Source of the DNA: Mangrovimonas aestuarii
Lineage (GTDB): Bacteria; Bacteroidota; Bacteroidia; Flavobacteriales; Flavobacteriaceae
Reading direction: 5' to 3'
Length of the DNA: 64,000 nt
Assembly (NCBI RefSeq): GCF_028767185.1
Contig: NZ_JARACK010000003.1
Span: forward strand, 186,001-250,000
In this document: piece after piece, positions 15,559 through 30,500 of the stretch
Layout of the letters: the number at the start of each line of letters is the position of its first letter
Numbering within the stretch: position 1 is the stretch's first letter
Notes under the pieces: model-generated
Seen by the model: only the letters and a program-made list of their open reading frames with translations
The model's database searches: none
What the model was told of the DNA's origin: nothing
Made by a program: the position numbers and the translations under genes

Positions 15559-15848
15559 TATTACTTTACAACCTTCCTTTACAGCTCATTTCTACATCAC
15601 ATAAAAGTTGCATTAGTTTAATATTTGTAAACACACTCAAAAGCCTCCATCATTTCACTTAACGGAGTAAATAACCTCAACCCTTCCTATTAACTAAATA
15701 TATCCAACACATTCAATTAACAATCATAATGTTTAGATTACAATTCTGGTGCCTTTTGTTAAAACTATCTTAACACCTTAATATTTACAAATAGTAAAAA
15801 TTGGCATTTATTTGCGATGCAATTTTTAATATTTGTAAAACCAAAATT
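15559..15848. other. AT-rich leader of the TonB receptor with three related motifs
   Basis: No gene is seen. The 15-mer TTTAATATTTGTAAA occurs twice exactly, at 15617-15631 and 15825-15839, and a variant TTAATATTTACAAA lies at 15778-15791. The second exact copy is 9 bases before the receptor ATG. They may be operator sites or part of an unusual promoter. No full TTTG-N19-TAnnTTTG promoter was found (nearest -7 is TTTATTTG at 15807). Confidence 0.5.
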
Positions 15849-18677
15849 ATGAACACTAAAACATTATTCGCATTATTGTGTTTGGGTATAGCATACGTAA
15901 ATACCCTATCTGCCCAAAATGGAGTCATCACAGGGACTGTAAGCGACTCAAGCTTCCCTTTACCTGGAGCTTCAGTTATTGTAGAAGGATCTACAAAAGG
16001 AACAACCACCGATTTTGACGGTAACTTTGCACTCAACCAACTCCCTTCCGGAACTGTTATACTTAACATTTCATATATAGGTTTTAAGACTAAAAGCGTA
16101 CAAGTCACTCTTGCGCCCGATGAAAAGAAAAACCTAGGTATGATTAGCTTGGAAGCATCATCAGAAGAACTTAATGAAATTCTTGTTCAGGGAGGCACAC
16201 GAAGAAATAGTGAGGCTCGCGCCTTGAACATTCAGAAGAAATCCATGAGCATTATGAACGTAATTGCTGCAGATGGAATTGGTAAATTACCGGACAGAAA
16301 CGCTGCAGAAACAGTACAACGCATCCAAGGGTTGTCGATAGAACGTGATCAAGGAGAGGGTCGTTATGTATCCATGCGTGGATTACCTCCTTTCTGGGCA
16401 TCTACTACCATCAACGGAAACAGATTGCCTACCTCTGGAGACGAAACGACTTCCAGAGCTACCCAATTCGACTTCTTCCCTTCTGAATTAATTAGCTATG
16501 TTCAAGCAGCTAAAGCCTTTACTCCTGATATGGAAGCAGACGGAATTGCCGGTGGTGTGAACTTTATCACCCAAACATCTCCCGCCAAGAAAACTTTGAA
16601 CGTAAACGTAGGTGGAGGTTACAACGATAAATCCGGCAAGGAAATCTATGATGCCTCTATTACTTATGGAGACCGTACCAAAGACGGAAAATTTGGGTTC
16701 ATTGTAAATGCTTCCCACTGGAACAGAAATTGGGCATCAGACAACTTTGAAGCAAGAAGAGCTGGTGATGAAGGGGTTTATCGCATGGAAATAAGAGACT
16801 ATACTGGAAAGAGAAAAACTACAGGCGTGAATGCAGCAGTAGAATTTAACCCTTCTAGCACAGATAAACTATTTGCTAGAGGTGTGTATGGAACTTTGAA
16901 TGATGAGGAAATACATTATAAGCACCGAGTACGTTTTGATAAATACAACCCAAACACTCAAAATGGGCGTGTTGAATTACAGAATATCTACAACATATTG
17001 ATCACTGATTTTTATCAGGCAGAACTGGGAGGTAAACATGACTTTAAGAACAGTACTTTAGACTGGGCACTTTCAACCAACAGAAACGAATTTAAGTATG
17101 GTGATGTCCCTAATGAAGACAACAACTCCTATTTCGTTGTTAAATACAAACAGGACGGCATTGGTTTTAATCCTGCATATGTTGATGACAAAGGAAATGG
17201 ATACAGAGCTTACTGGAAAGCAGACGGAGGTGTTTTAGACTTTAATGATTCTGACGCTCTATTCAATTACTTTAGTGATCCAAACTTCCAAATGGATCCT
17301 ACACAAATGCAGTTTGCAGACATGGAATACTATCAAGTAGGTGTAATGGAGCGCGACAATATCATCGCTTCTGTAAACTATGAACACAACATAAACGATG
17401 ACCTTACCCTTAAGTTTGGCGGTAAGTTTAGGGATAAGGACAGAAGAGCATTATTCTCAGACGACTTCTATGAGTGGGGCTCCAACTCGTCAGTACCTTA
17501 TTTATCGGATATGTCGAATTACGTTGTGAATCAACCTGGGGGATCAGAATATATGCAAGAAATCAACGCCCCTATTTCAAATATATTTGGCGGTGTATTA
17601 TCAACCGATGGAATGACTGCTTTCATGGACCAAAACCAAAATAACCTAGTGCTTCAAGACTACTCAGAAGGTCTACAATTTGGATCTGGTTTAGGAAGAA
17701 ATTTTGATACCGATGAAACACACGCCTCTGCTTTCGGTATGGGTACTTACAACGCTTCCGACAAACTAACCCTTTTAGGCGGGCTTAGAGCTACACACAC
17801 TAGCACCACCGTATCTGGCTATGCTAATGTTGACGATGAATTGGAAAAAGTAAAAAGCACTAAAAACTACTGGGCAATTCTTCCTATGTTACACCTTAAG
17901 TATACCCCTAAGGAAGACATGAACATTCGTTTTGCAGCAACCAGAAGTTTCTCAAGACCAAACTTTGGAGATATTACGCCAGGCGGTACTTACTTAGCCG
18001 CCGATAACGAATATAAAGGAGGCAACCCAGATTTGAACCCTACTTTTTCTTGGAACTTGGACCTTTTAGGTGAATACTACTTTAAGAACGTAGGCGTGGT
18101 TAATGCCGGAGTATTCTACAAATCAATCACAGACCCAATTTTCGAGAACAGTTTTACTGGAACTTATAATGGACATGAAAATGTACAAATGTCCACATCT
18201 CAAAATGGTCAGGATGCATGGATTGCCGGTGTAGAGCTAGGATTGAACAAACGCTTTGATTTCTTACCAGGGTTCCTTAAGCATTTCGGAACGCAACTTA
18301 ATGCTACTTTCATGGATTCGGAAATGACTATGCCAGGAGGTAGAAAAGTGACCACACCTTACCAAGCTAATCAAATAATGAACGCTCAGTTATTCTACGA
18401 CAACGACAAGTTCAGTGCTAGAATTGCCTTCAACCATAAAGGAAAATATGCTATGGAGTTTGGTGATAAAGACATTAACGATTTTTACTACGGAAAGTAC
18501 AACACTATGGATTTCTCAGCGTCTTACCGTATTGGAAAGCATCTAATGTTCTATACAGATCTTAACAACATCTTAAACCAGCCGCTAGTTTATCATTATG
18601 GAAGTAGTGAAGACAGACCTGCTCAAGTAGAACTTTACGGGCTTAAAGGAAGCTTTGGAGTTAAATTCACCTTATAA
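15849..18677 (+). CDS. TonB-dependent receptor with carboxypeptidase-like N-terminal domain
   Basis: 942 residues from the ATG at 15849; the frame opens 16 codons earlier at a TTG, but the signal peptide MNTKTLFALLCLGIAYVNTLSAQ fits the later start. Order: signal peptide, carboxypeptidase-like beta domain (about 25-110), plug domain (about 130-245, DRNAAETVQRIQGLSIERD, VSMRGLPPFW), then a 22-strand type barrel ending in GSFGVKFTL. The plug resembles the TIGR01782 class. No SusD partner is next to it. The catabolic genes that follow 108 bases later suggest it imports their substrate across the outer membrane, powered by TonB-ExbBD. Confidence 0.93.
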   Translation: MNTKTLFALLCLGIAYVNTLSAQNGVITGTVSDSSFPLPGASVIVEGSTKGTTTDFDGNFALNQLPSGTVILNISYIGFKTKSVQVTLAPDEKKNLGMISLEASSEELNEILVQGGTRRNSEARALNIQKKSMSIMNVIAADGIGKLPDRNAAETVQRIQGLSIERDQGEGRYVSMRGLPPFWASTTINGNRLPTSGDETTSRATQFDFFPSELISYVQAAKAFTPDMEADGIAGGVNFITQTSPAKKTLNVNVGGGYNDKSGKEIYDASITYGDRTKDGKFGFIVNASHWNRNWASDNFEARRAGDEGVYRMEIRDYTGKRKTTGVNAAVEFNPSSTDKLFARGVYGTLNDEEIHYKHRVRFDKYNPNTQNGRVELQNIYNILITDFYQAELGGKHDFKNSTLDWALSTNRNEFKYGDVPNEDNNSYFVVKYKQDGIGFNPAYVDDKGNGYRAYWKADGGVLDFNDSDALFNYFSDPNFQMDPTQMQFADMEYYQVGVMERDNIIASVNYEHNINDDLTLKFGGKFRDKDRRALFSDDFYEWGSNSSVPYLSDMSNYVVNQPGGSEYMQEINAPISNIFGGVLSTDGMTAFMDQNQNNLVLQDYSEGLQFGSGLGRNFDTDETHASAFGMGTYNASDKLTLLGGLRATHTSTTVSGYANVDDELEKVKSTKNYWAILPMLHLKYTPKEDMNIRFAATRSFSRPNFGDITPGGTYLAADNEYKGGNPDLNPTFSWNLDLLGEYYFKNVGVVNAGVFYKSITDPIFENSFTGTYNGHENVQMSTSQNGQDAWIAGVELGLNKRFDFLPGFLKHFGTQLNATFMDSEMTMPGGRKVTTPYQANQIMNAQLFYDNDKFSARIAFNHKGKYAMEFGDKDINDFYYGKYNTMDFSASYRIGKHLMFYTDLNNILNQPLVYHYGSSEDRPAQVELYGLKGSFGVKFTL

Positions 18678-18727
18678 GCCAATAACAACCTCATAATAGA
18701 TTTAAGTGTAACTGTTATTGACACTAA

Positions 18728-18755
18728 ATGCTCCTCATAATTCCATGGGGAGCAT
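18728..18755 (+). terminator. Hairpin after the TonB receptor gene
   Basis: ATGCTCC (18728-18734) and GGAGCAT (18749-18755) form a stem, and an outer inverted repeat CAATAACA/TGTTATTG spans 18680-18720. There is no clear T tract, so this may attenuate rather than stop transcription into the next gene. Confidence 0.4.
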
Positions 18756-18784
18756 CTTAATATAATGTAAAATCAAAAAATACA

Positions 18785-19942
18785 ATGGACCATACTTTTG
18801 ACTTAATAATCGTAGGAGGAGGCGTTTTAGGAACTTTTCATGCTTACCACGCTTTAAAACAAGGCTATTCGGTAGCACTTCTTGAAAAGGACAACCAGCC
18901 ACATGGAGCAACTGTCCGTAATTTTGGCCAGGTAGTTCCCTCTGGAATGAATGTAAAATGGCAAAACTACGGAAGGAAAAGCCTTGATATCTATAAACAA
19001 ATTCAAGAACAATTTGATATCAGCTTAAAACAAAACGGCACTATATATATAGCTTCAAATGAGGAGGAAGTTCAATTGATTGAGGAGCTAAACCAAATCA
19101 ATCGCTCAAACGACTATCAATCCGTTATATTAACAAAGCAACAATGCTTAAACAAATACCCTGGATTAAAACAGGAATACATTAAAGCCGGCCTTTTTTT
19201 CCCCGAAGAAGTTACCATAGAACCTAGAACAATGATTCATAAACTTAGAACATTTATGATCAAAGAACTTGGACTGAAATATTTCCCAAATACTACAGCA
19301 ATAAACACCCAAGAGAATGGTGAATCTGTGGTAGTCACTTCAGCTGATGGCTCTGAATTTAAAGCATCTAAAGTTATTATCTGTAACGGAAGTGATTTTA
19401 AGACACTCTACCCAGACACTTACTACAATAGTGATTTAGTTGTTTCCAAGCTTCAAATGCTCCAAACAAAACCCCAAACCAACTATTCTTTAAAGGGATC
19501 TATTTTAACCGGTTTGACAATTAGGAGATATGAAGCCTTCGAAGAATGCCCTTCCTATGCCGAAATTAAAAGCTACGAAGACGCTAAAAGCTTTGGGAAA
19601 AAATATGGCATTCACATCCTGTTCAAACAAGCTGCTGATGGCTCGGTAATCATTGGCGACTCTCATGAATATGCCAATGCCTCAGAAGCAGACAGCTTAG
19701 GATTCGACCTAAATATGGACATAGATAATTTTATGATTGAAGAGGCTAAAAAAATTATTGATTTACCGAACTACAACATCCAAAACCGTTGGGCTGGATT
19801 TTATTCCCAATGTAAATCAAAAGACATTTTCGAGCATCGCATAAGCGATAATGTCCATATTGTAACTGGTATTGGAGGAAAAGGAATGACGGGAAGCGCA
19901 GGGTATTCCAAGGAAAGTATACACAAAATTTTTAATGATTAA
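18785..19942 (+). CDS. FAD-dependent oxidoreductase, TIGR03364-like (phosphonate-associated)
   Basis: 385 residues of the D-amino-acid oxidase/glycine oxidase fold. The FAD-binding beta-alpha-beta motif is at the N-terminus (LIIVGGGVLGTFHAYHALKQ) with ATVRNFGQVVPSGM soon after; the C-terminus GIGGKGMTGSAGYSKE closes the FAD site. The ATVRNFGQ signature and the neighbouring PhnX-like gene fit TIGR03364, a clade known from phosphonate gene clusters, members of which oxidise alkylated aminophosphonates. The substrate here is inferred, not shown. The hydrolase gene follows after 14 bases, so they form an operon. Confidence 0.82.
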   Translation: MDHTFDLIIVGGGVLGTFHAYHALKQGYSVALLEKDNQPHGATVRNFGQVVPSGMNVKWQNYGRKSLDIYKQIQEQFDISLKQNGTIYIASNEEEVQLIEELNQINRSNDYQSVILTKQQCLNKYPGLKQEYIKAGLFFPEEVTIEPRTMIHKLRTFMIKELGLKYFPNTTAINTQENGESVVVTSADGSEFKASKVIICNGSDFKTLYPDTYYNSDLVVSKLQMLQTKPQTNYSLKGSILTGLTIRRYEAFEECPSYAEIKSYEDAKSFGKKYGIHILFKQAADGSVIIGDSHEYANASEADSLGFDLNMDIDNFMIEEAKKIIDLPNYNIQNRWAGFYSQCKSKDIFEHRISDNVHIVTGIGGKGMTGSAGYSKESIHKIFND

Positions 19943-19956
19943 TATATTATAAGCAA

Positions 19957-20634
19957 ATGACAAAGATAAAAATGGTGGTTTTTGATATGGCGGGAACCAC
20001 AGTAAACGAGAACAACGTGGTTTACAAAACCCTTCATAAAGCCATCAACGAACATGGCACGAAGGTTTCACTTGAAACGGTACTGGAGAATGGTGCCGGC
20101 AAGGAAAAACTTCAAGCCATCAAGGACGTGCTTACATCATTAAACGGAGACGCTAAGACAGATGCTCATCCCATTTTCCAGACCTTTAAAATGATGTTGG
20201 AAGACGCCTATAAACACCTTAACGTGACACCGATTGATGGTGTAGAAAACCAAATGCTCCAGCTACGAGCCAATGGTGTAAAGGTTGTCCTAAACACGGG
20301 CTACAACAGTGTGGTAGCCAATAATCTATTAGAAAAATTAAGATGGAACAAAGAAGAGCATTACGACCTTTTAATAACTGCCGACGATGTAGTTAACGGT
20401 CGCCCGCATCCGGATATGATTGAAATGGCCATGAAAACTTTTGACATAACAGATTCCGCAGAGGTTTTAAAAGCTGGAGACTCTGCCATAGATATCGAAG
20501 AGGGAAAAAACGCAAACTGTGGCATAACCGTTGGTGTTTTATCCGGTGCACAAACCAAAGAACAACTTGAAAATGCAAGCCCCGATTATATCATAGATTC
20601 CTTAGCTACTATAGATAAGATTATAGTTGGTTAA
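19957..20634 (+). CDS. Phosphonatase-like HAD hydrolase (TIGR03351/PhnX-like)
   Basis: 225 residues, HAD superfamily. Motif I is DMAGT (Asp10, Ala12), the alanine form shared with phosphonoacetaldehyde hydrolase; GRPHPDMI and KAGDSAIDIEEGKNANC are motifs III/IV, the former with arginine where most HADs have lysine. In the cap, G48-x-x-K51 can be lined up by eye with the Schiff-base lysine region of PhnX, but the PhnX methionine and histidine around it are Ala47 and Ala54, so a canonical phosphonatase is doubtful. It probably acts on a phosphonate or phosphate ester made by the preceding oxidase. An uncertain reaction, a secure family. Confidence 0.82.
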   Translation: MTKIKMVVFDMAGTTVNENNVVYKTLHKAINEHGTKVSLETVLENGAGKEKLQAIKDVLTSLNGDAKTDAHPIFQTFKMMLEDAYKHLNVTPIDGVENQMLQLRANGVKVVLNTGYNSVVANNLLEKLRWNKEEHYDLLITADDVVNGRPHPDMIEMAMKTFDITDSAEVLKAGDSAIDIEEGKNANCGITVGVLSGAQTKEQLENASPDYIIDSLATIDKIIVG

Positions 20635-20654
20635 TCTCGATTACATTGTGTTTA

Positions 20655-20691
20655 GATTAAGCCTGGCCAATTTATTGGTTCGGGCTTAATC
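20655..20691. terminator. Bidirectional hairpin between convergent genes
   Basis: GATTAAGCC (20655-20663) and GGCTTAATC (20683-20691) with a partly paired CCAA/TTGG interior. It sits between the convergent hydrolase and XRE genes and overlaps the last codons of the latter. Confidence 0.6.
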
Positions 20692-21261
20692 ATTTTCTGA
20701 ATAAAAATATAAAACAAGCATTGTGCAGTCTTCTGTACTTCTATTTACTGGTACATGTGGCAGTCTCCCATTAAAATACAGAGAATCTCCGGCATTTACC
20801 TCAACCTCTTCCTCTTCAATTTGATAAACGCAAGTTCCGCTTAACACATATTTAAATTCCCATGCGTCTGTTGTAACCATATCTCTCTTAGAGTTGGGAG
20901 ATACCGTTAGCATGACAGCTTCAAAACCTACAGCATTTAAACTCTTGCTAAAGATATGATGATAGGTAAACCCTTCTGCCTCTATCTCTTTCTCCAAATA
21001 TTGCTGATCTTCTTTTTTTAGAAGAATATACTTTGCCCCCGCTTTATTCTCAACGCCTTCAAAAAAGGTACTGGCATCGACCTCCAAGGCTCTTATTAAC
21101 TCTAACAAAACCGGTAAAGACGGAATAGTTCGTCCATTTTCAATCCTAGAAATCAAACCATTACTCACGCCGGCATTAGCTGCTAGTGCACTAATGGTTA
21201 TCTGTTGTTTATTACGGATCGCTTTTATGCGCTTCCCAATTCCAATTAAGAAGTCGTCCAT
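20686..21261 (-). CDS. XRE-family regulator with C-terminal cupin (copy 1)
   Basis: 191 residues. Helix-turn-helix at about 10-65 (ISALAANAGVSNGLISRIEN), cupin sensing domain at about 110-190 (WEFKYVLSGTCVYQIEEEEV, DSLYFNGRLPHVPVN). It is a clear paralogue of the 193-residue protein at 22396-22977, sharing the RDMVTT-like turn and the final LPHVP pattern. It ends a three-gene minus-strand unit behind the dehydrogenase. A perfect 9+2+9 palindrome lies 3 bases upstream of its ATG, suggesting autoregulation. Ligand unknown; probably a small organic substrate of the neighbouring enzymes. Confidence 0.9.
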   Translation of the reverse strand: MDDFLIGIGKRIKAIRNKQQITISALAANAGVSNGLISRIENGRTIPSLPVLLELIRALEVDASTFFEGVENKAGAKYILLKKEDQQYLEKEIEAEGFTYHHIFSKSLNAVGFEAVMLTVSPNSKRDMVTTDAWEFKYVLSGTCVYQIEEEEVEVNAGDSLYFNGRLPHVPVNRSTEDCTMLVLYFYSEND

Positions 21262-21264
21262 ATT

Positions 21265-21284
21265 GTTCTTTTGAGCAAAAGAAC
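21265..21284. promoter_or_regulatory. Palindromic operator candidate upstream of XRE-cupin copy 1
   Basis: GTTCTTTTG-AG-CAAAAGAAC, perfect 9-bp arms with a 2-base centre, in the 33-base gap between the dehydrogenase stop and the XRE start. Its core TTCTTTT..AAAAGAA is like the half-sites at 23004-23020. Confidence 0.65.
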
Positions 21285-21294
21285 GAAAAAAATG

Positions 21295-22386
21295 TCAATC
21301 TTGAATTACACCTACCCTGTAATGCTTACCACTATGAGCACAATTAAAGGCTTGGCCTAACATACCCAACGCAAAGTCCTCACCAACCAATTCGCTAAAA
21401 GGGTATTTGTCTCTAGATTTGGCTAAAAAATCTATAGCATACCCCAAATCTTGAGGGATATAATTATGAAGCCCTTTTATTGTAATTAAGTTCCTTACAA
21501 TCATCTCGGCATTGACTTGTGTATGGCGTTCGCTATAAACGGCTCCAACCCAAACAGCAATCCCCCCAATGTTCAATACTTCTAATCCTTTTTCCATAGC
21601 AGATGCCACTCCTGTAGTGTCAATCACCACATCAATACCACCATAGAAATTAAGATCATTTTTAATTTCTTGAGAACTAGATTCTCCGGAGATAGATTTG
21701 TTTATCCCAAATAGATAGGCTCTCTGTAAACGATCGCTTACAATATCCATGGCAAATACCTCTTTTGTCCCAGCCTCTCTACTCATAGCACAAGCAGATA
21801 TTCCCAACATACCGGCCCCAATTACCAATACATTTTTACCTTCTAAATTACCCGCCAATCTTAAAGCACCTGCAATAGTGGCATGCGTGCAGTTTAAAGG
21901 AGCCAATTCACTATAACTCAAATGTTCTGGCAGCTTGAAAATAGCAGTTCCTTTTTTCAGTAAACAATGTGATGCAAATCCGCCGTTTAGAACATCGTCA
22001 TCCTCCATTTTACGATGACCGTATTTGTACAATCCTTGTGATTTTTGAGGTATCCCTTTAATTGCCATATCATCCTCCTCATCAAAAGCGTATACTGACC
22101 AAGTCACCAAATCCCCTTGTTTCAAAGTATCACCATAGTAATCGTTTACCCCCCCCTTACCGGTAACTACTACTTCCCCTATAATTTCATGTCCCAAAAC
22201 CGAAGGTTGAGGAGATACTCGTCTACCGTAATAAGTATGTAAGTCACTGGTACAAATGGTCGTATATTTTATTTTAACCAATACTTCCCCAATTTCTATT
22301 TCTGGCAAATTCAGCATAACACGCTTAAATGGCTGCTGAACTTGTTCAAAAACCATCGCCTCTGCTTTAATGTTTTTATTTTCCAT
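21295..22386 (-). CDS. Zinc-type medium-chain alcohol dehydrogenase (TIGR03366/HpnZ-like)
   Basis: 363 residues. Catalytic zinc ligands are visible as Cys45, His66-Glu67 (VLGHEIIGEV) and Cys166 (PLNCTHATIAG); NAD(P) is bound at VIGAGMLG (188-195). The lobe that carries four structural-zinc cysteines in most relatives (residues about 97-125) has none. The KYGHRKMEDDDVLNGGFASH stretch is like TIGR03366, dehydrogenases found with phosphonate catabolism genes. It would interconvert an alcohol and aldehyde of the pathway. It lies between two XRE-cupin genes with short gaps (9 and 33 bases), so all three are one transcript. Confidence 0.82.
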   Translation of the reverse strand: MENKNIKAEAMVFEQVQQPFKRVMLNLPEIEIGEVLVKIKYTTICTSDLHTYYGRRVSPQPSVLGHEIIGEVVVTGKGGVNDYYGDTLKQGDLVTWSVYAFDEEDDMAIKGIPQKSQGLYKYGHRKMEDDDVLNGGFASHCLLKKGTAIFKLPEHLSYSELAPLNCTHATIAGALRLAGNLEGKNVLVIGAGMLGISACAMSREAGTKEVFAMDIVSDRLQRAYLFGINKSISGESSSQEIKNDLNFYGGIDVVIDTTGVASAMEKGLEVLNIGGIAVWVGAVYSERHTQVNAEMIVRNLITIKGLHNYIPQDLGYAIDFLAKSRDKYPFSELVGEDFALGMLGQAFNCAHSGKHYRVGVIQD

Positions 22387-22395
22387 GGTTATATA

Positions 22396-22977
22396 TTAAG
22401 AATGTGCAATTAAATAAATGACTAAAATAACCGCTTCTTTATCAGACTTGCTGTAGGGAACATGGGGTATTCTACCATCAAAAAACAAAGAGTCCCCTTG
22501 TCGTAATTCTAAAAGCTTATCATCCAAACCAAATGAAATATCACCTTGTAACATGTAAATAAATTCATATCCCTCTGTAGTTACCATCTCTCTATGAGAA
22601 TCTGTACTCAATGTAAGTATAGAAACCTCCAACGAAACATCTCTAAGGTTATGTGACAGTACATTTTTATATTGAAAGCCTTTGGATTCCTCTTTCTCGG
22701 TTTCGCAATAATCCTCTTTCCTCACCACCATATATCCCGGGAATGCCTGTGTGCTTTTAACACCCTCAAAAAAATCGTTTAAATCCACCTCAAGGGTTTT
22801 AAGTATTTTCAAAAGCGTTGGAAACGTTGGAAACACTCTACCGTTCTCTATTTTAGAGAGCATAGCACTACTCACATCCGACAATTCTGCTAAATCCGCC
22901 AGTTTCCAATTTTTATATTGTCTTAGTTCTCGAATTTTTGCCCCTATCCAAATAATCAAATAATTGTTTTCCGTCAT
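22396..22977 (-). CDS. XRE-family regulator with C-terminal cupin (copy 2)
   Basis: 193 residues; helix-turn-helix at about 12-68 (LADLAELSDVSSAMLSKIEN), cupin at about 115-190 (YEFIYMLQGDISFGLDDKL, DSLFFDGRIPHVPYS). It is a paralogue of the protein at 20686-21261. Divergent from the MFS permease across a 144-base region that holds three TTTCTT/AAGAAA half-sites, one overlapping its own -7 box. First gene of the regulator-dehydrogenase-regulator unit; probably senses the pathway substrate and represses or activates both sides. Confidence 0.9.
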   Translation of the reverse strand: MTENNYLIIWIGAKIRELRQYKNWKLADLAELSDVSSAMLSKIENGRVFPTFPTLLKILKTLEVDLNDFFEGVKSTQAFPGYMVVRKEDYCETEKEESKGFQYKNVLSHNLRDVSLEVSILTLSTDSHREMVTTEGYEFIYMLQGDISFGLDDKLLELRQGDSLFFDGRIPHVPYSKSDKEAVILVIYLIAHS

Positions 22978-22996
22978 AATTTTTAAATATCAGCCA

Positions 22997-23044
22997 CAAA
23001 AATATTTCTTTAAAAGAAATTTTATTGCCTGTTAAGAAATATTT
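22997..23044. promoter_or_regulatory. Divergent operator and -7 box of XRE-cupin copy 2
   Basis: AAATATTTCTT (23000-23010) and AAGAAATATTT (23034-23044) are a perfect 11-bp inverted repeat with a 23-base spacer. Inside it, ATTTCTT-TAA-AAGAAAT (23004-23020) is a tight perfect palindrome. A minus-strand -7 box TATTTTTG (22997-23004) overlaps the left arm, so a bound regulator would block transcription of its own gene. Confidence 0.6.
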
Positions 23045-23090
23045 AATCGTTATTTCACATTATAGTAATCTTACTCCTTGTCCCGGGATA

Positions 23091-23098
23091 TACATTTG
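23091..23098 (+). promoter_or_regulatory. Candidate -7 box for the MFS permease
   Basis: TACATTTG fits TAnnTTTG and lies 24 bases before the TTG start at 23122. No TTTG at 19-base spacing was found. Confidence 0.35.
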
Positions 23099-23121
23099 CC
23101 AAAACCATAATTCATTTCATT

Positions 23122-24435
23122 TTGAACAAAGTAACCCTCTCTGGTGTCATAGAAAAAAACAAAAACTTATCTGCAATTTGGATTATGACCGCAGCCTTTT
23201 TGTGCTATACAGGCATGTATGCTGTTAGAAAAGCATTTTTGGCAGGACAATACCTCGACCTCGATCTAGGTTTTAATCTTGATACTAAAACAGTTTTAGT
23301 GATAAGTCAAGTACTAGGTTATATGGTATCAAAATTTATGGGGATAAAGGTCATTTCGGAAATGTCTCATAATAGAAGGAGTAAATGGCTTATTAGTTTA
23401 GTAAGTTTTGCCTTGGCCATGCTTTTACTTTTTTCATTTGTCCCCCCAGAACTTAAAATAATCACTCTTTTTTTTAACGGACTGCCATTAGGAATGGTCT
23501 TTGGAGTAGTCCTTTCATATATTGAAGGAAGAAAAAACACCGAACTTTTAGCCGCCGCCCTTAGTGCAACCTTTATATTTTCCACAGGTCTTGTAAAAAC
23601 CTCGGGGCTTTTTTTGATGCAGAATTTTAATATATCAGAACCTCTTATGCCCTTTACTACTGGACTATTGTTCTTCCCTCTTTTTCTACTTGCTGTCTGG
23701 ATGTTGAACAAGGCAGGAACTCCAACTCAAGAAGACATAAAAGCTAGATTTGAAAGAGTACCTATGACAAAAACAACAAGAAAGAAGTTTCTTAAAAAAC
23801 ATGGCGTAGGTTTTTCAGGTTTAGTTGTAATCTATATTGTTTTAACTATTGTTAGGGATTTTAGGGATAATTTTGTAGTTGAATTTTGGAGCGAACTTGG
23901 TTACACTCAACAGCCAGGACTTATTACCTTCACCGAAATCCCAGTCGCGATAATAGTATTAATTATTGCGGCTATAGGGGTACTAATAAGAAATAACCAG
24001 AAAGCATTTAACCTAGGAATGTGGCTCACTGCACTTGGGGCTGCTACAATTTTAATAGCAACTTTACTTTTCAAAGAAAATATGGTTTCTCCAGTGTTTT
24101 GGATGGTGAGCACCGGCATTGGAATTTACCTTCCTTATATTTTGTTCCACTGCCTAATGTTTGAACGACTAATCGCTATGCTTAAGTTTAAAGGCAATGT
24201 TGGTTTTCTTTTTTATACGGCAGATGCTTTGGGCTATCTAGGCAGTGTTCTTATTTTGGTTTTAAAAGAAAGTATTGATTATAAAGGAGCATGGACTACA
24301 TTTTTCATTAAACTTAATCTAAATGCTTCTATAGCCATTATTATCTTCGTTATTTTTTCCGTGATCTATTTCATAAAGCGAACCAAAAAAAACCCTCAAA
24401 TACTGTTGAGTTCTAATTGCGACGTAACGGCTTAA
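23122..24435 (+). CDS. MFS-type permease, DUF5690 family
   Basis: 437 residues with about 12 hydrophobic segments. The N-terminal IWIMTAAFLCYTGMYAVRK and the following KAFLAGQYLDLDLG match the DUF5690 group, recognised from memory, which is distantly related to organophosphate:phosphate antiporters of the major facilitator superfamily. The start is a TTG at 23122; no ATG upstream keeps the first helix in frame, and the next Met is inside helix 1. Divergent from the XRE-dehydrogenase unit, it probably carries the pathway substrate across the inner membrane. A strong terminator follows. Confidence 0.8.
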   Translation: MNKVTLSGVIEKNKNLSAIWIMTAAFLCYTGMYAVRKAFLAGQYLDLDLGFNLDTKTVLVISQVLGYMVSKFMGIKVISEMSHNRRSKWLISLVSFALAMLLLFSFVPPELKIITLFFNGLPLGMVFGVVLSYIEGRKNTELLAAALSATFIFSTGLVKTSGLFLMQNFNISEPLMPFTTGLLFFPLFLLAVWMLNKAGTPTQEDIKARFERVPMTKTTRKKFLKKHGVGFSGLVVIYIVLTIVRDFRDNFVVEFWSELGYTQQPGLITFTEIPVAIIVLIIAAIGVLIRNNQKAFNLGMWLTALGAATILIATLLFKENMVSPVFWMVSTGIGIYLPYILFHCLMFERLIAMLKFKGNVGFLFYTADALGYLGSVLILVLKESIDYKGAWTTFFIKLNLNASIAIIIFVIFSVIYFIKRTKKNPQILLSSNCDVTA

Positions 24436-24500: not shown

Positions 24501-24538
24501 AAACAAAAAAACCGACTTCTCAGTCGGTTTTTTTGTTT
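24501..24538. terminator. Strong bidirectional terminator
   Basis: Perfect 17-bp inverted repeat with a TCTC loop: AAACAAAAAAACCGACT (24501-24517) and its complement at 24522-24538. It serves both the MFS gene and the arsenic operon, which converge here. Confidence 0.88.
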
Positions 24539-24581: not shown

Positions 24582-25652
24582 TTACTCCTGAACAACTTTC
24601 TGAGGCTTGCTCACAAAATATTTTTCTCTAAGCCAAAACGAAACACGCACCAATAAAATAAGTGCTGGCACCTCAACCAGTGGCCCTATTACCCCAGCGA
24701 AAGCCTGACCTGAATTCAATCCAAAAACAGCAATGGCAACAGCAATGGCCAACTCAAAATTATTTCCAGCAGCCGTAAAGGCTACAGCTGTGGTTTTGTT
24801 ATAATCTGCTCCCGTGGACTTGGTAACAAAGAATCCAACAACAAACATCACTGCAAAGTAAATCAACAATGGTACGGCAATAATCAATACATCCATTGGT
24901 ATCTCAACGATCAATTCCCCTTTTAATGAGAACATAACAACAATGGTAAATAATAACGCTATTAAGGTTAATGGAGACACTTTAGGAATAAAGGTTTTGG
25001 TATACCAGGCTTCTCCTTTCAGTTTCACTAATACCACGCGGCTTATAATACCCATAAGGAAAGGAATCCCCAAATAAATGACTACGCTTTCTGCAATAGT
25101 AGCAATAGAAATGTCAATTATAGCTCCTTCAAAACCTAATAAAGGCGGTAGCTTAGTAATGAATAACCACGCGTAAAAACTATAGGCAAACACTTGGAAA
25201 ATACTGTTCAGCGCTACCAATCCGGCGCCATACTCCGAGCTTCCTTCGGCTAGGTCATTCCAAACCAATACCATAGCAATACAACGCGCCAATCCAATCA
25301 ATATCAAACCAACCATATACTCCGGATAATCCTGTAAAAACAGCAACGCAAGCACAAACATCAACACAGGGCCGATTACCCAATTAAGCAGCAACGACAC
25401 AGATAATATCTTTACGTTTTTAAACACTTTGGGCAACAAAGCATAATTTACCTTAGCCAAAGGAGGATACATCATAACAATAAGCCCAATGGCTATTGGA
25501 ATATTGGTCGTCCCACTGCTCATAGAATCGATAACACTAGGGAACGATGGAAAAAAATATCCGATACCAACGCCGATTGCCATGGCTAAAAATATCCATA
25601 AGGTTAAATTACTGTCTAAAAAACTGAGTTTCTTTTTTCCTTTGTTTTCCAT
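24582..25652 (-). CDS. Arsenite efflux permease, Acr3 family
   Basis: 356 residues with about ten transmembrane helices, including the family segments [20 protein letters not shown] (with the conserved cysteine) and [20 protein letters not shown]. Acr3 proteins expel As(III) using the proton motive force. Its start shares one base with the stop of the preceding phosphatase-like gene, so it is the last gene of the arsR-DUF6428-arsC-acr3 operon. Confidence 0.94.
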
Positions 25653-26281
25653 TACTTGATGTTTGAGAAAATGTATTTCATTTCACTTGCTATCTGGACA
25701 CTGCGTTCCAAATATTTTTCTTCCTGCTGAGGCGTATTATCAAATGCCTTTGGATCCTCAAAGGTTATAGGCACACGTTTTTCTGCTCCTGCAATAAACG
25801 GACAACCGCCATCGGCTTGCGAACAGGTCATGATTGCTGCAAATCCACTTTGTGGGTTAAAACCATCATCATAGGTTTTGGAAAACCCAATAACAGGCAG
25901 CTCATTAACAGAATATTTAATACTGTATACAGGATTGTTACCCTCAGATAGTGTTTCAATTAAAAATCCCTGCTTAGCCAAAGTTTGGGCAACCATAGGG
26001 TACAATGCCGTAGCTTCGGTACCTCCTGAATAACTACTAACGTTATTCATATTGTAATAATGTGCCATTGCTTGTGCCCAAATCTGCGATAAGTGACTTC
26101 TTCTAGAGTTGTGAGTACAGATGAAGTTAAGCCGTATGGCCTTGTTATTATCCTTTTTCTGCTGGATATAATCCATTAAAGGCTGCAATATTGCTTTTCG
26201 GTCTTCTGAAATGTTTTCCAACTCTATGCCTTCAATAGCCTCAATGACTCTTGGCAGCATTGTGGTTTTAGTGGTAACCAT
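25652..26281 (-). CDS. Low-molecular-weight phosphatase-type arsenate reductase
   Basis: 209 residues. The CX5R loop CTHNSRR (Cys55 to Arg61) in [20 protein letters not shown] marks the low-molecular-weight protein tyrosine phosphatase fold used by thioredoxin-type ArsC. A further cysteine pair in [12 protein letters not shown] could serve the disulfide cascade. It carries about 50 extra N-terminal residues compared with the 130-140-residue ArsC of Staphylococcus. Overlaps the permease gene by one base. Reduces As(V) to As(III) for export. Confidence 0.88.
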
Positions 26282-26305
26282 ATTAGTTTATACGTTTAAT
26301 AAAAA

Positions 26306-26779
26306 TTAACAACAACCTGAATCCGGAGAACAACAAGAAGCCGAACTAGCTTGTAAATCGGATAGTCTTACTTTAGGCTTTTCTTGTGGAATACCACAGT
26401 TATCCTTGGCCAAACAGTCGGTTTGCTTTGAAGTGAGAACAAAGTCCTTACCATCAAGATCTAAGTTGAACTTCTCGATGGTCTGCCCTTGGTATTCTAC
26501 TTCAATTTCCAAATCCCCTATACCCAAAGTTTTTTCAGAAAGCTCAATAATATGAAGCAATTTTTCTGGATGTAGTCTATGGTCATAATCATTGGCTTCC
26601 CAAAGCTGAAAATTCACGGTTTCTTCATGTCTTACTACACCTCCGCAGTCAATGAAGTCCTTAGTGATCTTTCCCACCTCGGTAACATGAAAATGAGCTG
26701 GCACGTAGTTTCCATTTGGCAATCTAAAGGCAATGGTATTCATTCCCTTTAAGTATAATTTGATTTCTGATAAAGTCAT
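26306..26779 (-). CDS. DUF6428 family protein of the arsenic operon
   Basis: 157 residues, no signal peptide or membrane segment. It begins MTLSEIKLYLKGMNTIAFRL and contains VPAHFHVTEVGKITKDFIDC, the DUF6428 pattern that accompanies arsR and arsC in Bacteroidota. The tail is cysteine-rich (SASCCSPDSGCC), a likely metalloid-binding tail. Function not established; an arsenic-handling role is suggested by context and by the cysteines. Confidence 0.8.
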   Translation of the reverse strand: MTLSEIKLYLKGMNTIAFRLPNGNYVPAHFHVTEVGKITKDFIDCGGVVRHEETVNFQLWEANDYDHRLHPEKLLHIIELSEKTLGIGDLEIEVEYQGQTIEKFNLDLDGKDFVLTSKQTDCLAKDNCGIPQEKPKVRLSDLQASSASCCSPDSGCC

Positions 26780-26821
26780 AACTATGTTTTTTATTGCTAA
26801 TTAGCATTTAGTAATAATAAT

Positions 26822-27151
26822 TTAACAACATTCTGTTTTAGGGATATCTTGATCTAAAAACAGCTTCATGGTGTTTTTCATGGACAACCAATTTTCTGTA
26901 TCTATACAGTAGCAAACACTGGTACCTTCTACATTACCTTTAATTAAACCTAGATTTTTAAGTTCCTTAAGATGCTGTGAGATGGTAGGCTGAGCCAATC
27001 CTATTTCATTAACCAAGTCACCACACACACAAGTATCGATTTTAAAAAGATGTTGTAAAATAGCCACTCGTGCCGGGTGCCCAAGTACTTTTGCTATTAA
27101 AGCAATCTCATTTTGTTCTTTGCTAAATATTTCTGTTTTAGATAAGCCCAT
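26822..27151 (-). CDS. arsR: ArsR family metalloregulator
   Basis: 109 residues, winged helix. The metal-sensing motif CVCGDLV (Cys41, Cys43) is in the position used by As(III)-responsive ArsR, with the recognition helix AQPTISQHLKELKNLG next to it, and the last residues are ECC. It should bind the promoter just upstream (27155-27185) and release on arsenite, freeing the four-gene operon it heads. Confidence 0.93.
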   Translation of the reverse strand: MGLSKTEIFSKEQNEIALIAKVLGHPARVAILQHLFKIDTCVCGDLVNEIGLAQPTISQHLKELKNLGLIKGNVEGTSVCYCIDTENWLSMKNTMKLFLDQDIPKTECC

Positions 27152-27538: not shown

Positions 27539-30500
27539 TTACCCTCTTTTTATAAGCGTTTTAATTACATTCTCTTGAGTTCTTCCATTTGTCACCTTTA
27601 TAAAATAAGGGGCTTCCTCCACGCTTTCCATGCCTTTGAGCTCAAAGAATCCTTGATCGTAAAACGTTTGCTTTGATTTCAATAATCTCCCATGAAGATC
27701 AAAAATCTCAATGGTAATTATCGTGCCTAAATAGGTTTCCGGAAATCTAAAGTTTATGGCATTGTTAAACGGATTGGGATAGATCATAACCTCATCCAAA
27801 CCACCAACAACACCTCCTCCAAGCTCAACTTTAGCAATGGCATAACAGGTTGAACTGTTACCGCTGCTATCAACTACTGTTAAACTAATCACGTTGCTCC
27901 CTACATCCTCAGAACCAAACTCTGAGGGCTCAACACTCATTTCTACAATACCACAGTTATCTGTCGATCCAACATCCAAATCCTCTGGATTTACCATTGC
28001 ATATCCATTAGCATCTAGAACTACTGTGATATCGTCTATCATACACACCGGCTGATTAATATCCATATCATCACCAAAACCATTACAGTTATCGTCAATA
28101 CCATTACATGGTGATTCCTCCATGCCTGGGTTAACCATAGCATTGCTATCATTACAATCTGTGTTATTGCCCACATAACCTTCTGGCTGACCACAACTAA
28201 TTACCACTGTACTAGCATCCCCATAACCATCGCCATCAACGTCGGCATACCACTCCATCTCTCCAATAACGACTGCATCCTCATCATCCAACAACCCATC
28301 ACAGTTATTATCTACTCCATCACAAACCTCTACTGCATCAGGGTTGATCTCCGCATCATTATCATTACAATCCAAAGCATTGTCCACGTATCCCAATGGT
28401 TGGTTACAAGCTTCAATACTGCTAGTTATATCACCATAACCATCACCGTCAACATCGGCATACCACAATCCACCGCCTACAACATCTAAATCCTGATCGT
28501 CAATCAAGCCATCGCAATCATTGTCTACACCATCACAAATTTCTGGAGCACCAGGATAAATAGAAGCATTTCCATCGTTGCAATCCAGATTATCGTACAC
28601 ATAACCATCTGGCTGATTACATGACCATTGGCTAATTGCAATATCTCCGTAACCATCGCCGTCATTATCCAAATACCAAAGCAACTGACCTAATAGCGAA
28701 TCATCGGCATCATCGACCAAGCCGTCACAATCGTTGTCTATGCCATCACAAACTTCCTGGGCATCGGGGTGGACATTCCAATTGTTATCGTCACAGTCTA
28801 AGGCATTGTCTACGTAGCCTATTGGCTGACCACAAACAACTACACTTGAATTTGCATCACCGTAACCATCGCCATCAACATCGGCGTACCAGCTAACACC
28901 TCCTAAAAGTGAGTCATCGGAATCATCCACTAGACCATCACAATCGTTATCTATACCGTCACAGATTTCCTGAGAACCTGGATTAATTAATCCATTGTTA
29001 TCATCACAATCAAAAGCATTATCGACATAGCCCATTGGTTGGTTACATGAAATCACTGTTGAAGCAATGTCTCCATAACCATCGCCATCTGTATCGGCAT
29101 ACCAGACCGATTGTCCAACAATTGAAACGTCGGCATCGTCTACCAAACCATCACAGTCGTTGTCTATACCGTCGCAGATTTCCTGGGCAGATGGGTTAAT
29201 GGCATTATTGCTATCGTCGCAATCCAAGGCATTGTCTACATAACCTGTTGGTTGTCCACACGACAGAACGCTATCACTTGAATCACCATAACCATCACCA
29301 TCTGCATCTAGATACCAAACCAATTGACCAATAATTGAATCATCGGCATCGTCCACCAAACCATCACAGTCGTTATCAATACCGTCACAGATTTCCTGAG
29401 CATCTGGGTTAATGGCATTATCGCCATCATTACAATCCAGAGCATTATCCACATAACCTGTTGTTTGCCCACACGACAAGATACTGTTGTTTGAATCCCC
29501 ATAACCATCACCATCAATATCGGCATACCAAGTAGATAGACCAATTATAGAATCATCGACATCGTCAATCAGACCATCACAATCATTGTCTATGCCATCG
29601 CAGATCTCTTGTGCATCAGGATTAATGGCATTATCGCCATCATTACAATCCAAGGCATTGTCTACATAACCTGTTGGTTGTCCACACGACAAAGCACTGT
29701 TGTTTGAATCTCCATAACCATCACCGTCAGTATCTGCATACCAAGTCGTTTGACCTATTACAGAATCGTCTGCATCGTCAACCAAACCGTCGCAGTTATT
29801 GTCAACCCCATCGCATATCTCCTGAGCAACTGGGTTGATAGAATTGTCATTATCATCGCAGTCCAAAGCATTATCAACATAGCCTATGGGCTGACTACAA
29901 ACCACTAGACTTGTATCTGGATCACCGTAACCATCACCGTCTAAATCTGAATAGTATGTCTGATACCCTATTAATGTAACATTAAAACTAATTGATGCAA
30001 TATTTCCACTAGGGTCTTCCGCTGTTAACGTTATTAAGGTTGGTTGCGTAAAATCAGTAATGGTTGTTCCAACTAAAGGCGTTTGACTCATTGTAACTCC
30101 GCAATTATCAGTTACCATTGTAAAACTGGAATAATCTGGAATAACAAACTCACAATTACTATTTAAATCTTCAATTTGGTCATCAACAGATGTTAAGGAA
30201 GGAGCCGTTATATCCTCTAAAAACACATTTTGTGTTTGAGTTGCAGTATTTCCATTCTCATCACTATAAGTCCAAGTAATAACAGTATTACCCATAGTAA
30301 TTATCGGAAAGTCAATATCTGAAACCGCCAAAATTTCGCCTTCATTGGCTGTAGGAACAGCAGGATTCAATTCACAATCTGCAGATAGGTCTGGTAAAAT
30401 TTCCACATCTGGAATAGGAATTCCTTCATTAACCACCTTTATCAAAGAATTTCTAGTTGGTAATGCGCCATTTTCACTATTAAAAACTGAAGGAAATGTT

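Follow-up and report, generated by a model that had tools for sequence, protein, structure and literature searches.

We analyzed a 64,000-nucleotide stretch of the Mangrovimonas aestuarii genome (contig NZ_JARACK010000003.1, positions 186,001 to 250,000), referred to in the following as the window, and found that it carries an island of seven genes that probably forms a phosphonate scavenging unit, covering import, oxidation to phosphonoacetaldehyde, phosphate release and its own regulation. The island is part of a 2.95-Mb genome and occupies positions 15849–24435 (8.6 kb). It comprises genes for a TonB receptor, a flavin adenine dinucleotide (FAD) oxidase, a HAD hydrolase, a Zn dehydrogenase, a DUF5690 permease of the major facilitator superfamily (MFS) and two XRE-cupin regulators, arranged as follows:

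15849–18677, + strand: TonB-dependent receptor with a CarboxypepD_reg-like N-terminal domain (TIGR01782, PF13715, PF07715, PF00593), proposed outer-membrane importer
18785–19942, + strand: FAD amine oxidase of the PbfD type (TIGR03364), predicted to convert an aminophosphonate to phosphonoacetaldehyde
19957–20634, + strand: phosphonatase-like HAD hydrolase (TIGR03351; D10 and K51 match D12 and K53 of PhnX in the alignment), proposed to cleave the C–P bond
20686–21261, − strand: XRE-cupin regulator a (XREa), proposed binder of TTTAC-N5-GTAAA sites
21295–22386, − strand: Zn alcohol dehydrogenase (ADH) resembling TIGR03366 (HpnZ), proposed to act on a hydroxyphosphonate
22396–22977, − strand: XRE-cupin regulator b (XREb), belonging to the type that neighbours ADH and DUF5690
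23122–24435, + strand: DUF5690 permease (PF18943) with a 12-helix MFS fold near the organophosphate:phosphate antiporters (OPA), proposed inner-membrane phosphonate importer

An earlier note, made from the letters of the window, had placed the seven genes at these positions and named their families, and hidden Markov model (HMM) searches bore it out, with TIGR03366 falling 7 bits short. The start of the receptor was corrected: the likely ATG is at 15849, within a longer frame that begins with TTG. The enzyme core of the island is known in kind, and the import and control layer is the new part; what gives the finding its value is the permease family together with its outer-membrane partner and the regulatory sites. 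Published work is cited below by PMC number.

The enzyme core

The FAD oxidase scored 414.9 bits against TIGR03364 (curated cut-off 285.1), with ThiO as the runner-up at 87.9 bits and weak matches to glycine and sarcosine oxidases as well. The ATVRNFGQ stretch that the earlier note had singled out proved to be real, R45, N46, F47 and G48 being invariant in the 32 TIGR03364 proteins that were kept, of 39, in the alignment. The Acinetobacter enzyme annotated as TIGR03364 is PbfD1, and both PbfD1 and PbfD2 use O2 to convert 2-aminoethylphosphonate (AEP) and N-methyl-AEP to phosphonoacetaldehyde (PMC10590968). A PbfD1/PbfD2 placement tree of 56 rows held a single Acinetobacter sequence, on a long branch, and was built without the Mariniblastus fucicola reference. 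The closest named relatives of both the oxidase and the permease are from flavobacteria, e.g., Flavobacterium and Snuella.

The hydrolase scored 229.8 bits against TIGR03351 (curated cut-off 218.9). Its top matches among PDB sequences were PhnX, and the first three ranks of a fold search were taken by the PhnX structures 1rql, 2ioh (K53R) and 1swv (D12A); other HAD phosphatases followed at a short distance. D10, K51, R149, D175 and D179 were invariant in all 34 aligned HAD proteins (34 rows kept of 39); D10 and K51 correspond to PhnX D12 and K53, which we take to be the nucleophile aspartate and the Schiff-base lysine, respectively. The aligned catalytic residues and the predicted fold thus support C–P cleavage over plain ester hydrolysis, short of proof.

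It is very improbable that the genes break down a sarcosine-like, non-phosphonate amine and a phosphate ester, with the phosphonate link being a habit of annotation. The FAD and HAD superfamilies are broad, and the weak glycine and sarcosine oxidase matches would fit such an activity, but the cut-off of TIGR03364 was passed by 130 bits and that of TIGR03351 by 11, the position of the Schiff-base lysine is invariant, and the PbfD enzymes gave no reaction with sarcosine, taurine or beta-alanine in the assays of PMC10590968. We also consider it unlikely, though less so, that the HAD enzyme uses a related aldehyde, such as hydroxyphosphonoacetaldehyde derived from 1-hydroxy-2-aminoethylphosphonate (HAEP), as the old description of TIGR03364 would have it. 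TIGR03351 is indeed a model separate from that of PhnX, and the TIGR03364 text quoted in PMC10590968 names HAEP. On the other hand, the assayed PbfD enzymes yield phosphonoacetaldehyde from AEP and its N-methyl form (PMC10590968), and TIGR03364 is paired with annotated phosphonoacetaldehyde hydrolases in Acinetobacter and Novosphingobium records. Phosphonoacetaldehyde is the intermediate that we retain for the oxidase and the hydrolase.

The DUF5690 permease

The permease matched PF18943 with 464.9 bits (gathering cut-off 25). An AlphaFold2 model with a pLDDT of 92.5 and a pTM of 0.91 showed about 12 long helices. When this model was used as a Foldseek query, human G6PT/SLC37A4 occupied ranks 1–6 (best E 4.8e-8, 17% identity), and in VIA it occupied ranks 1 and 2 (best Z 33.8, root-mean-square deviation 3.2 over 365 residues). 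No row in either list was titled E. coli GlpT, which excludes nothing.

Two DUF5690 alignments were made, the first with 24 of 33 proteins and the second with 46 of 76, the window included. The 46-protein profile aligned over most of its length with a profile of the E. coli OPA carriers GlpT, UhpT and UhpC, with E values of 1.2e-4 (local, probability 54%) and 2.7e-8 (global), compared with 0.42 and 0.47, respectively, for a control profile of three sugar porters, and 0.19–0.72 for sugar porters and NarK taken one at a time. The DUF5690 profile HMM matched UhpT with an E of 1.4e-4, versus 0.19 for the best among 1004 decoys. GlpT alone was not a significant match, and a search of PDB sequences with the profile returned nothing up to an E of 1. 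In the profile alignment, R36, K71 and R245 of the permease are in register with R45, K80 and R269 of GlpT, and these three residues are invariant in 46 of 46 DUF5690 proteins. R45 and R269 are presumably the phosphate-binding (anion-binding) arginines of GlpT.

In light of its fold, the aligned residues and the gene context described below, DUF5690 is likely a phosphonate permease, which would give a job to a transporter family of previously unknown function. No paper was found for the terms DUF5690, TIGR03351 or TIGR03366 in the literature searched.

Co-conservation of DUF5690 and phosphonate genes

We surveyed 198 genomes of the class and 149 genomes drawn from the family to which the window belongs; in the following, G and L numbers designate individual genomes and loci. 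In the class survey, TIGR03364 was above cut-off in 15 genomes, all 15 with DUF5690. TIGR03351 was found at E ≤ 1e-35 in 20 (4 of which pass the curated cut-off), 19 of them with DUF5690, and PhnW in 16, 15 with DUF5690. DUF5690 itself was present in 30 of the 198 genomes, and 27 of these 30 had at least one of the three enzymes, versus 1 of the 168 others (Fisher p 7.6e-29, uncorrected for shared ancestry). By a hand count, the enzyme-linked DUF5690 genomes span 15 of 18 genera. The DUF5690 genomes without any of the three enzymes were G001, in which DUF5690 lies near a contig edge, G080 and G145.

TIGR03364 was present in 8 of the 149 family genomes, the source genome included. Since a 20-kb stretch in each of the seven others holds the same set of DUF5690, FAD, HAD and XRE-cupin genes, the co-location of these genes is not due to chance. 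One family locus (L209) has the dehydrogenase and a second XRE-cupin gene besides the common set. The co-conservation of the genes and the phosphonate reading of the island, which the earlier note had put forward, are both supported.

In the M. aestuarii genome we found no PhnW at E ≤ 1e-50, and hence no PhnWX pair; no second TIGR03351 gene at E ≤ 1e-35; a single match to PF12974 (PhnD type) of 23.7 bits, under the cut-off of 27; and a best Phn-HD score of 22 bits against a cut-off of 214.6, PhnA, PhnY and TIGR01422 lying outside this genome-wide search. PhnJ was absent at E ≤ 1e-10 from this genome and from all 198 class genomes, with a positive E. coli control. The idea that a TonB receptor and an MFS permease together take the place of an ABC importer is supported. 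The route had also been called a different and self-sufficient one. Its self-sufficiency is a prediction; PhnW is indeed absent at the threshold above, but an oxidase–phosphonatase route without PhnW, PbfD2 + PhnX, had already been proposed in 2023 (PMC10590968).

A wider survey with the 24-protein DUF5690 profile covered the best 80 of at least 561 named loci, using six-frame translations and profiles built here. For cluster names such as SusD-like, PHP, Phn-HD and PhoD-like, a single member of each cluster was tested and the others were assigned by similarity to it; the tested Phn-HD member scored 206.5 bits (cut-off 214.6). Among the 80 loci, 51 had TIGR03364, TIGR03351/PhnX, PhnW or Phn-HD within 10 kb, 7 had phnGHIJ and 9 had the dehydrogenase alone. 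The C–P lyase genes phnGHIJ lie near DUF5690 in Dyella/Rhodanobacter (L147, L148, L155, L156, L163, L166 and L170); PhnG, H, I and J of Dyella (L147), which an ABC protein adjoins, were confirmed by Pfam, and PhnF of Rhodanobacter (L163) by NCBIfam. DUF5690, TIGR03364 and phnX occur together in an annotated Novosphingobium plasmid record. In a plasmid record of the gut bacterium Parabacteroides distasonis (NZ_OY725756.1, L192), DUF5690, phnX and phnW are adjacent, with an inorganic phosphate transporter upstream, which suggests that phosphonates may be used in the gut. If the proposed role of DUF5690 is correct, it would flag phosphonate use in hundreds of genomes (at least 561 matching stretches), Parabacteroides included.

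In a quick tree of 107 DUF5690 proteins, phosphonate-linked leaves were scattered throughout. The window permease fell in a 14-row clade (SH-aLRT 100), of which 13 rows, the window included, were phosphonate-linked; the unlinked member, from Snuella (L122), has only a dehydrogenase and an XRE-cupin gene. The larger groups without the first marker set were Dyella/Rhodanobacter, with C–P lyase, a six-row PHP group and a ten-row clade.

Several observations weigh against this interpretation of the island and its permease. The hydrolase falls below the cut-off of the PhnX model TIGR01422 (107.5 versus 220 bits), and the dehydrogenase below that of TIGR03366 (321.0 versus 328.1 bits; the next best model, at 110.4, scored about 210 less). 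In the structural searches, other MFS carriers came close behind G6PT (NorA with a Z of 31.6 versus the best 33.8, sialin and others), and the fold alone is therefore unspecific. Against single OPA carriers, the local E values of the DUF5690 profile were 0.0004 for UhpT, 0.013 for UhpC and 0.023 for GlpT, and the global values were 0.08–0.72, none of them good. One genome, G179 (L108), is the only one of the 198 with PhnW and TIGR03351 but no DUF5690. Among the 80 loci, 13 lacked the tested genes, although three of these are stretches under 9 kb. In six loci of one genus (L082, L093, L094 and L096–L098), only a PHP phosphatase gene adjoins DUF5690; this HisJ-like gene is found in 6 of 6 loci, with PhnW elsewhere in all six genomes, and it is possible that it encodes a phosphonate or phosphate-ester enzyme. 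The ten-row clade (Pedobacter, Rufibacter and others) includes some of the 13 marker-free loci, and its one tested member (L101) has Cupin_8, DUF3050 and sugar kinase genes as neighbours; DUF5690 may therefore have other substrates. Finally, many counterparts of the receptor elsewhere are SusC/SusD pairs (SusD-like cluster, 21 loci, with the family tested on one).

A rather unlikely alternative, which nevertheless deserves weight, is that DUF5690 is a phosphate exporter, or a general carrier of organophosphate or phosphate, whose gene only happens to accompany the phosphonate genes. Sugar phosphates are the cargo of the closest folds, phosphatase- and phosphodiesterase-family neighbours recur (PHP, PhoD-like, PF01663, PF04185), and the 13 loci without tested phosphonate genes within 10 kb would also fit. 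However, DUF5690 accompanies hydrolytic, oxidative and radical C–P cleavage sets in several phyla. Moreover, TIGR03364, Phn-HD and SusCD form a plasmid cluster in Hymenobacter whose record gave no match to DUF5690; an annotated MFS transporter in this cluster is 26.9% identical to GlpT and does not match the DUF5690 profile. We continue to regard DUF5690 as a likely phosphonate permease.

In four loci (L101, L145, L173 and L185), DUF5690 lies near a Cupin_8-cluster gene, accompanied by DUF3050 in L101, L145 and L173, and the tested phosphonate genes are absent; the DUF5690 proteins of L101 and L173 are identical. These loci may represent another substrate or an undescribed route.

The Zn dehydrogenase

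Residues C45, H66, E67 and C166 of the dehydrogenase, which we take to be the usual catalytic-zinc positions, were invariant in 24 aligned proteins (24 rows kept of 28). Because TIGR03366 was found at E ≤ 1e-60 in 3 of the 198 class genomes, none above cut-off, the dehydrogenase is an optional part. Of 27 loci with the dehydrogenase, 18 had HAD/PhnX, 10 had the oxidase and 8 had HAD/PhnX but no oxidase within 10 kb. The last group suggests that the dehydrogenase can itself supply the aldehyde, for which 2-hydroxyethylphosphonate would be the natural candidate substrate. The oxidation of 2-hydroxyethylphosphonate to phosphonoacetaldehyde was weighed for another enzyme, PbfF, and excluded there (PMC12366243).

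The dehydrogenase might instead open no second route and detoxify the acetaldehyde that the HAD hydrolase sets free, by reducing it to ethanol, a proposal that we rate as rather less likely than not. Zn dehydrogenases commonly reduce acetaldehyde. Acetaldehyde is, furthermore, the product of phosphonatase (PMC10590968). Against this, 28 of 38 oxidase loci have no dehydrogenase, and in 8 of the 18 loci with dehydrogenase and HAD/PhnX there is no FAD oxidase within 10 kb, so that something other than a neighbouring oxidase would have to produce the aldehyde. These eight loci weaken the case for detoxification as the only role of the enzyme, and we tentatively retain the supply of phosphonoacetaldehyde as its proposed function.

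Regulators and candidate operators

The layout suggests three transcription units: receptor–oxidase–hydrolase on the + strand, XREb–dehydrogenase–XREa on the − strand, and DUF5690 on the + strand, divergent from XREb. The closest relatives of XREa are in FAD–HAD loci, and those of XREb in dehydrogenase + DUF5690 loci; the survey suggests that two modules, FAD–HAD–XREa and ADH–DUF5690–XREb, are united in this island. The earlier note had assigned no role to the dehydrogenase or to the two regulators. The following candidate sites were identified:

15617–15631, − strand: putative operator site 1, TTTACAAATATTAAA, an imperfect TTTAC-N5-GTAAA palindrome
15784–15798, + strand: putative operator site 2, TTTACAAATAGTAAA, with perfect arms, paired with site 3, 42 bp apart
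15825–15839, − strand: putative operator site 3, TTTACAAATATTAAA, just 5' of the receptor ATG at 15849
21265–21284, no strand: palindrome GTTCTTTTGAGCAAAAGAAC, weak candidate operator of XREb
23004–23020, no strand: palindrome ATTTCTTTAAAAGAAAT, weak candidate operator of XREb, in the XREb/DUF5690 divergent promoter region

The operator motif was derived from the window and afterwards tested elsewhere. The motif TTTACAAATANTAAA appears three times in the window, each time 5' of the receptor; of 100 shuffled versions of the window, 2 reached this number at one mismatch. We counted 30 sites at ≤1 mismatch in 15 related loci (346 kb), chosen from 21 that were inspected, the six omitted having no site; 20 simulations gave 1.2 sites on average and never more than 4. 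At least one of the 30 sites, at position 17717 of L113 (Flavobacterium aquidurense DSM 18293, which has the gene families of the island), falls within an unrelated gene. The convergent site pairs were spaced 41–43 bp in 10 of 11 rows. When 133 loci were counted, sites were present in 16 of 39 loci with any XRE-cupin of the XREa kind versus 1 of 94 without; where a close XREa was encoded (≥221 bits, a threshold set after seeing the data), the proportion was 13 of 15. Since the sites track this type of regulator, we propose that XREa binds TTTAC-N5-GTAAA.

Of the 149 family genomes, 3 have the exact pair, once each, and all of them belong to the 8 that carry TIGR03364; the other 5 of the 8 lack it. 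The only two exact 14-mer copies in the M. aestuarii genome are those in the window from which the motif came. A genome-wide regulon was rejected: 12 sites were found at ≤1 mismatch versus 8 for the reversed control, and none wider was visible.

At 21266 and 23006 there is a second palindrome, TTCTTT-N-AAAGAA, which recurs at an unrelated position, 58558; 0.21 copies would be expected in the window as a whole. It is also found beside XREb and DUF5690 in Snuella (L122), but was absent from ten other loci inspected and is therefore the weaker operator candidate.

The receptor and proposed outer-membrane uptake

The receptor scored 443.6 bits against TIGR01782 (cut-off 310). Its relatives lie in DUF5690–FAD–HAD loci of Flavobacterium and Chryseobacterium (53–58% identity) and in FAD loci of sphingomonads (44–46% identity). 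PF01663-type genes are found beside the same receptor family in L075, L076, L084, L087 and L103 (family tested on L075 only), and the L075 phosphodiesterase-family protein carries a type IX secretion system tail. The SusC/SusD pairs, some accompanied by phosphodiesterase-family genes, hint at the import of larger phosphonate conjugates, and such phosphodiesterases may free phosphonate head groups outside the cell. An extracellular phosphodiesterase was rejected as a fixed part of the system: the island has none, and one PF01663 gene above cut-off lies elsewhere in the genome. Literature passages on TonB-dependent uptake, aminoethylphosphonate and Bacteroidetes contained no link between a TonB receptor and phosphonate uptake.

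Proposed pathway and comparison with known systems

In the pathway that we propose, the TonB receptor would bring an aminoalkylphosphonate, or a small conjugate of one, into the periplasm. The DUF5690 carrier, as predicted from its fold, motif and context, would then take it across the inner membrane, with R36, K71 and R245 holding the phosphonate group. The TIGR03364 oxidase would convert AEP or its N-methyl form to phosphonoacetaldehyde, an amine and H2O2, a reaction shown for its relatives only. In the least certain step, the dehydrogenase might feed the same aldehyde from 2-hydroxyethylphosphonate. From its aligned catalytic residues and fold, the HAD enzyme is predicted to form a Schiff base through K51 and to cleave the C–P bond, giving phosphate and acetaldehyde. 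XREa would govern the receptor–oxidase–hydrolase operon through the paired TTTAC-N5-GTAAA sites, and XREb the dehydrogenase/DUF5690 side.

A broader reading, which we offer tentatively and rate at somewhat less than even, would join three proposals: that DUF5690 is a shared phosphonate permease family, serving hydrolytic, oxidative and radical C–P cleavage in Bacteroidota, some Proteobacteria and Planctomycetota; that the TIGR03366 enzyme is a 2-hydroxyethylphosphonate dehydrogenase supplying the same hydrolase; and that the island comprises two sub-regulons, one for amine phosphonates and one for alcohol phosphonates, with a separate XRE-cupin regulator and operator for each.

The enzymes resemble the PbfD2 + PhnX pair of M. 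fucicola, in which a TIGR03364/PbfD oxidase adjoins a phosphonatase, PhnW is missing and the same aldehyde is predicted (PMC10590968). The island differs in that its hydrolase belongs to TIGR03351 and that it adds the Zn dehydrogenase and two XRE-cupin regulators; its proposed importers are the TonB receptor and DUF5690, the Mariniblastus cluster being compared on its enzymes only. The same three enzyme families also come together in the HpnWXZ pathway (HpnW/TIGR03364, HpnZ/TIGR03366), which was already named as proposed in PMC8931226. HpnWXZ is an annotation-level proposal, to which importers, operators, a check of catalytic residues and the hypothesis of a dehydrogenase entry route are added here. 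A TIGR03364 oxidase and a phosphonatase are likewise found in the AepXVW + PhnWX cluster of Acinetobacter sp. SAAs474, but the island has neither an AepXVW-type ABC importer nor PhnW.

For the permease, the closest parallel in design is AepP of Pseudomonas putida BIRD-1, a GlpT-related MFS carrier of the OPA kind that is encoded with phosphonate genes, shares the phosphate-binding residues of GlpT and is needed for growth on AEP as the nitrogen source; AepP was also reported in the Bacteroidetes species Kriegella aquimaris (PMC8316502). DUF5690 would add another family built along these lines. Unlike AepP, which was compared by its description only, DUF5690 is a separate Pfam family for which GlpT alone is no significant match.

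Boundaries and surroundings of the island

Two hairpins were noted in and next to the island:

18728–18755, + strand: hairpin lying between the receptor gene and the oxidase gene, which may act as an attenuator or mark a processing site
24506–24533, no strand given: terminator-like hairpin 3' of DUF5690, before the ACR3 arsenite exporter gene

The 5' flank holds genes for porphobilinogen synthase, a GldE/CorC-like protein and an O6-methylguanine methyltransferase. Base composition was discarded as a clue to foreign origin, being uninformative (GC content 38.1% for both island and window).

Directly downstream of the island, on the other strand, lie arsenic-type genes (24582–27151). The first of these encodes an ACR3 arsenite exporter (24582–25652; TIGR00832, 439.6 bits), and a reductase-like gene and an ArsR-like regulator were recognised by eye only. 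The exporter was rejected as a member of the island, an ACR3 match being present in 1 of the 120 related loci L071–L190 (Sphingobium, L139) and in 0 of the 7 family loci L208–L214. Further downstream, at 27539–32752, is a gene, noticed by eye only, for a 1737-residue protein that has numerous DGDGYGD-type repeats.

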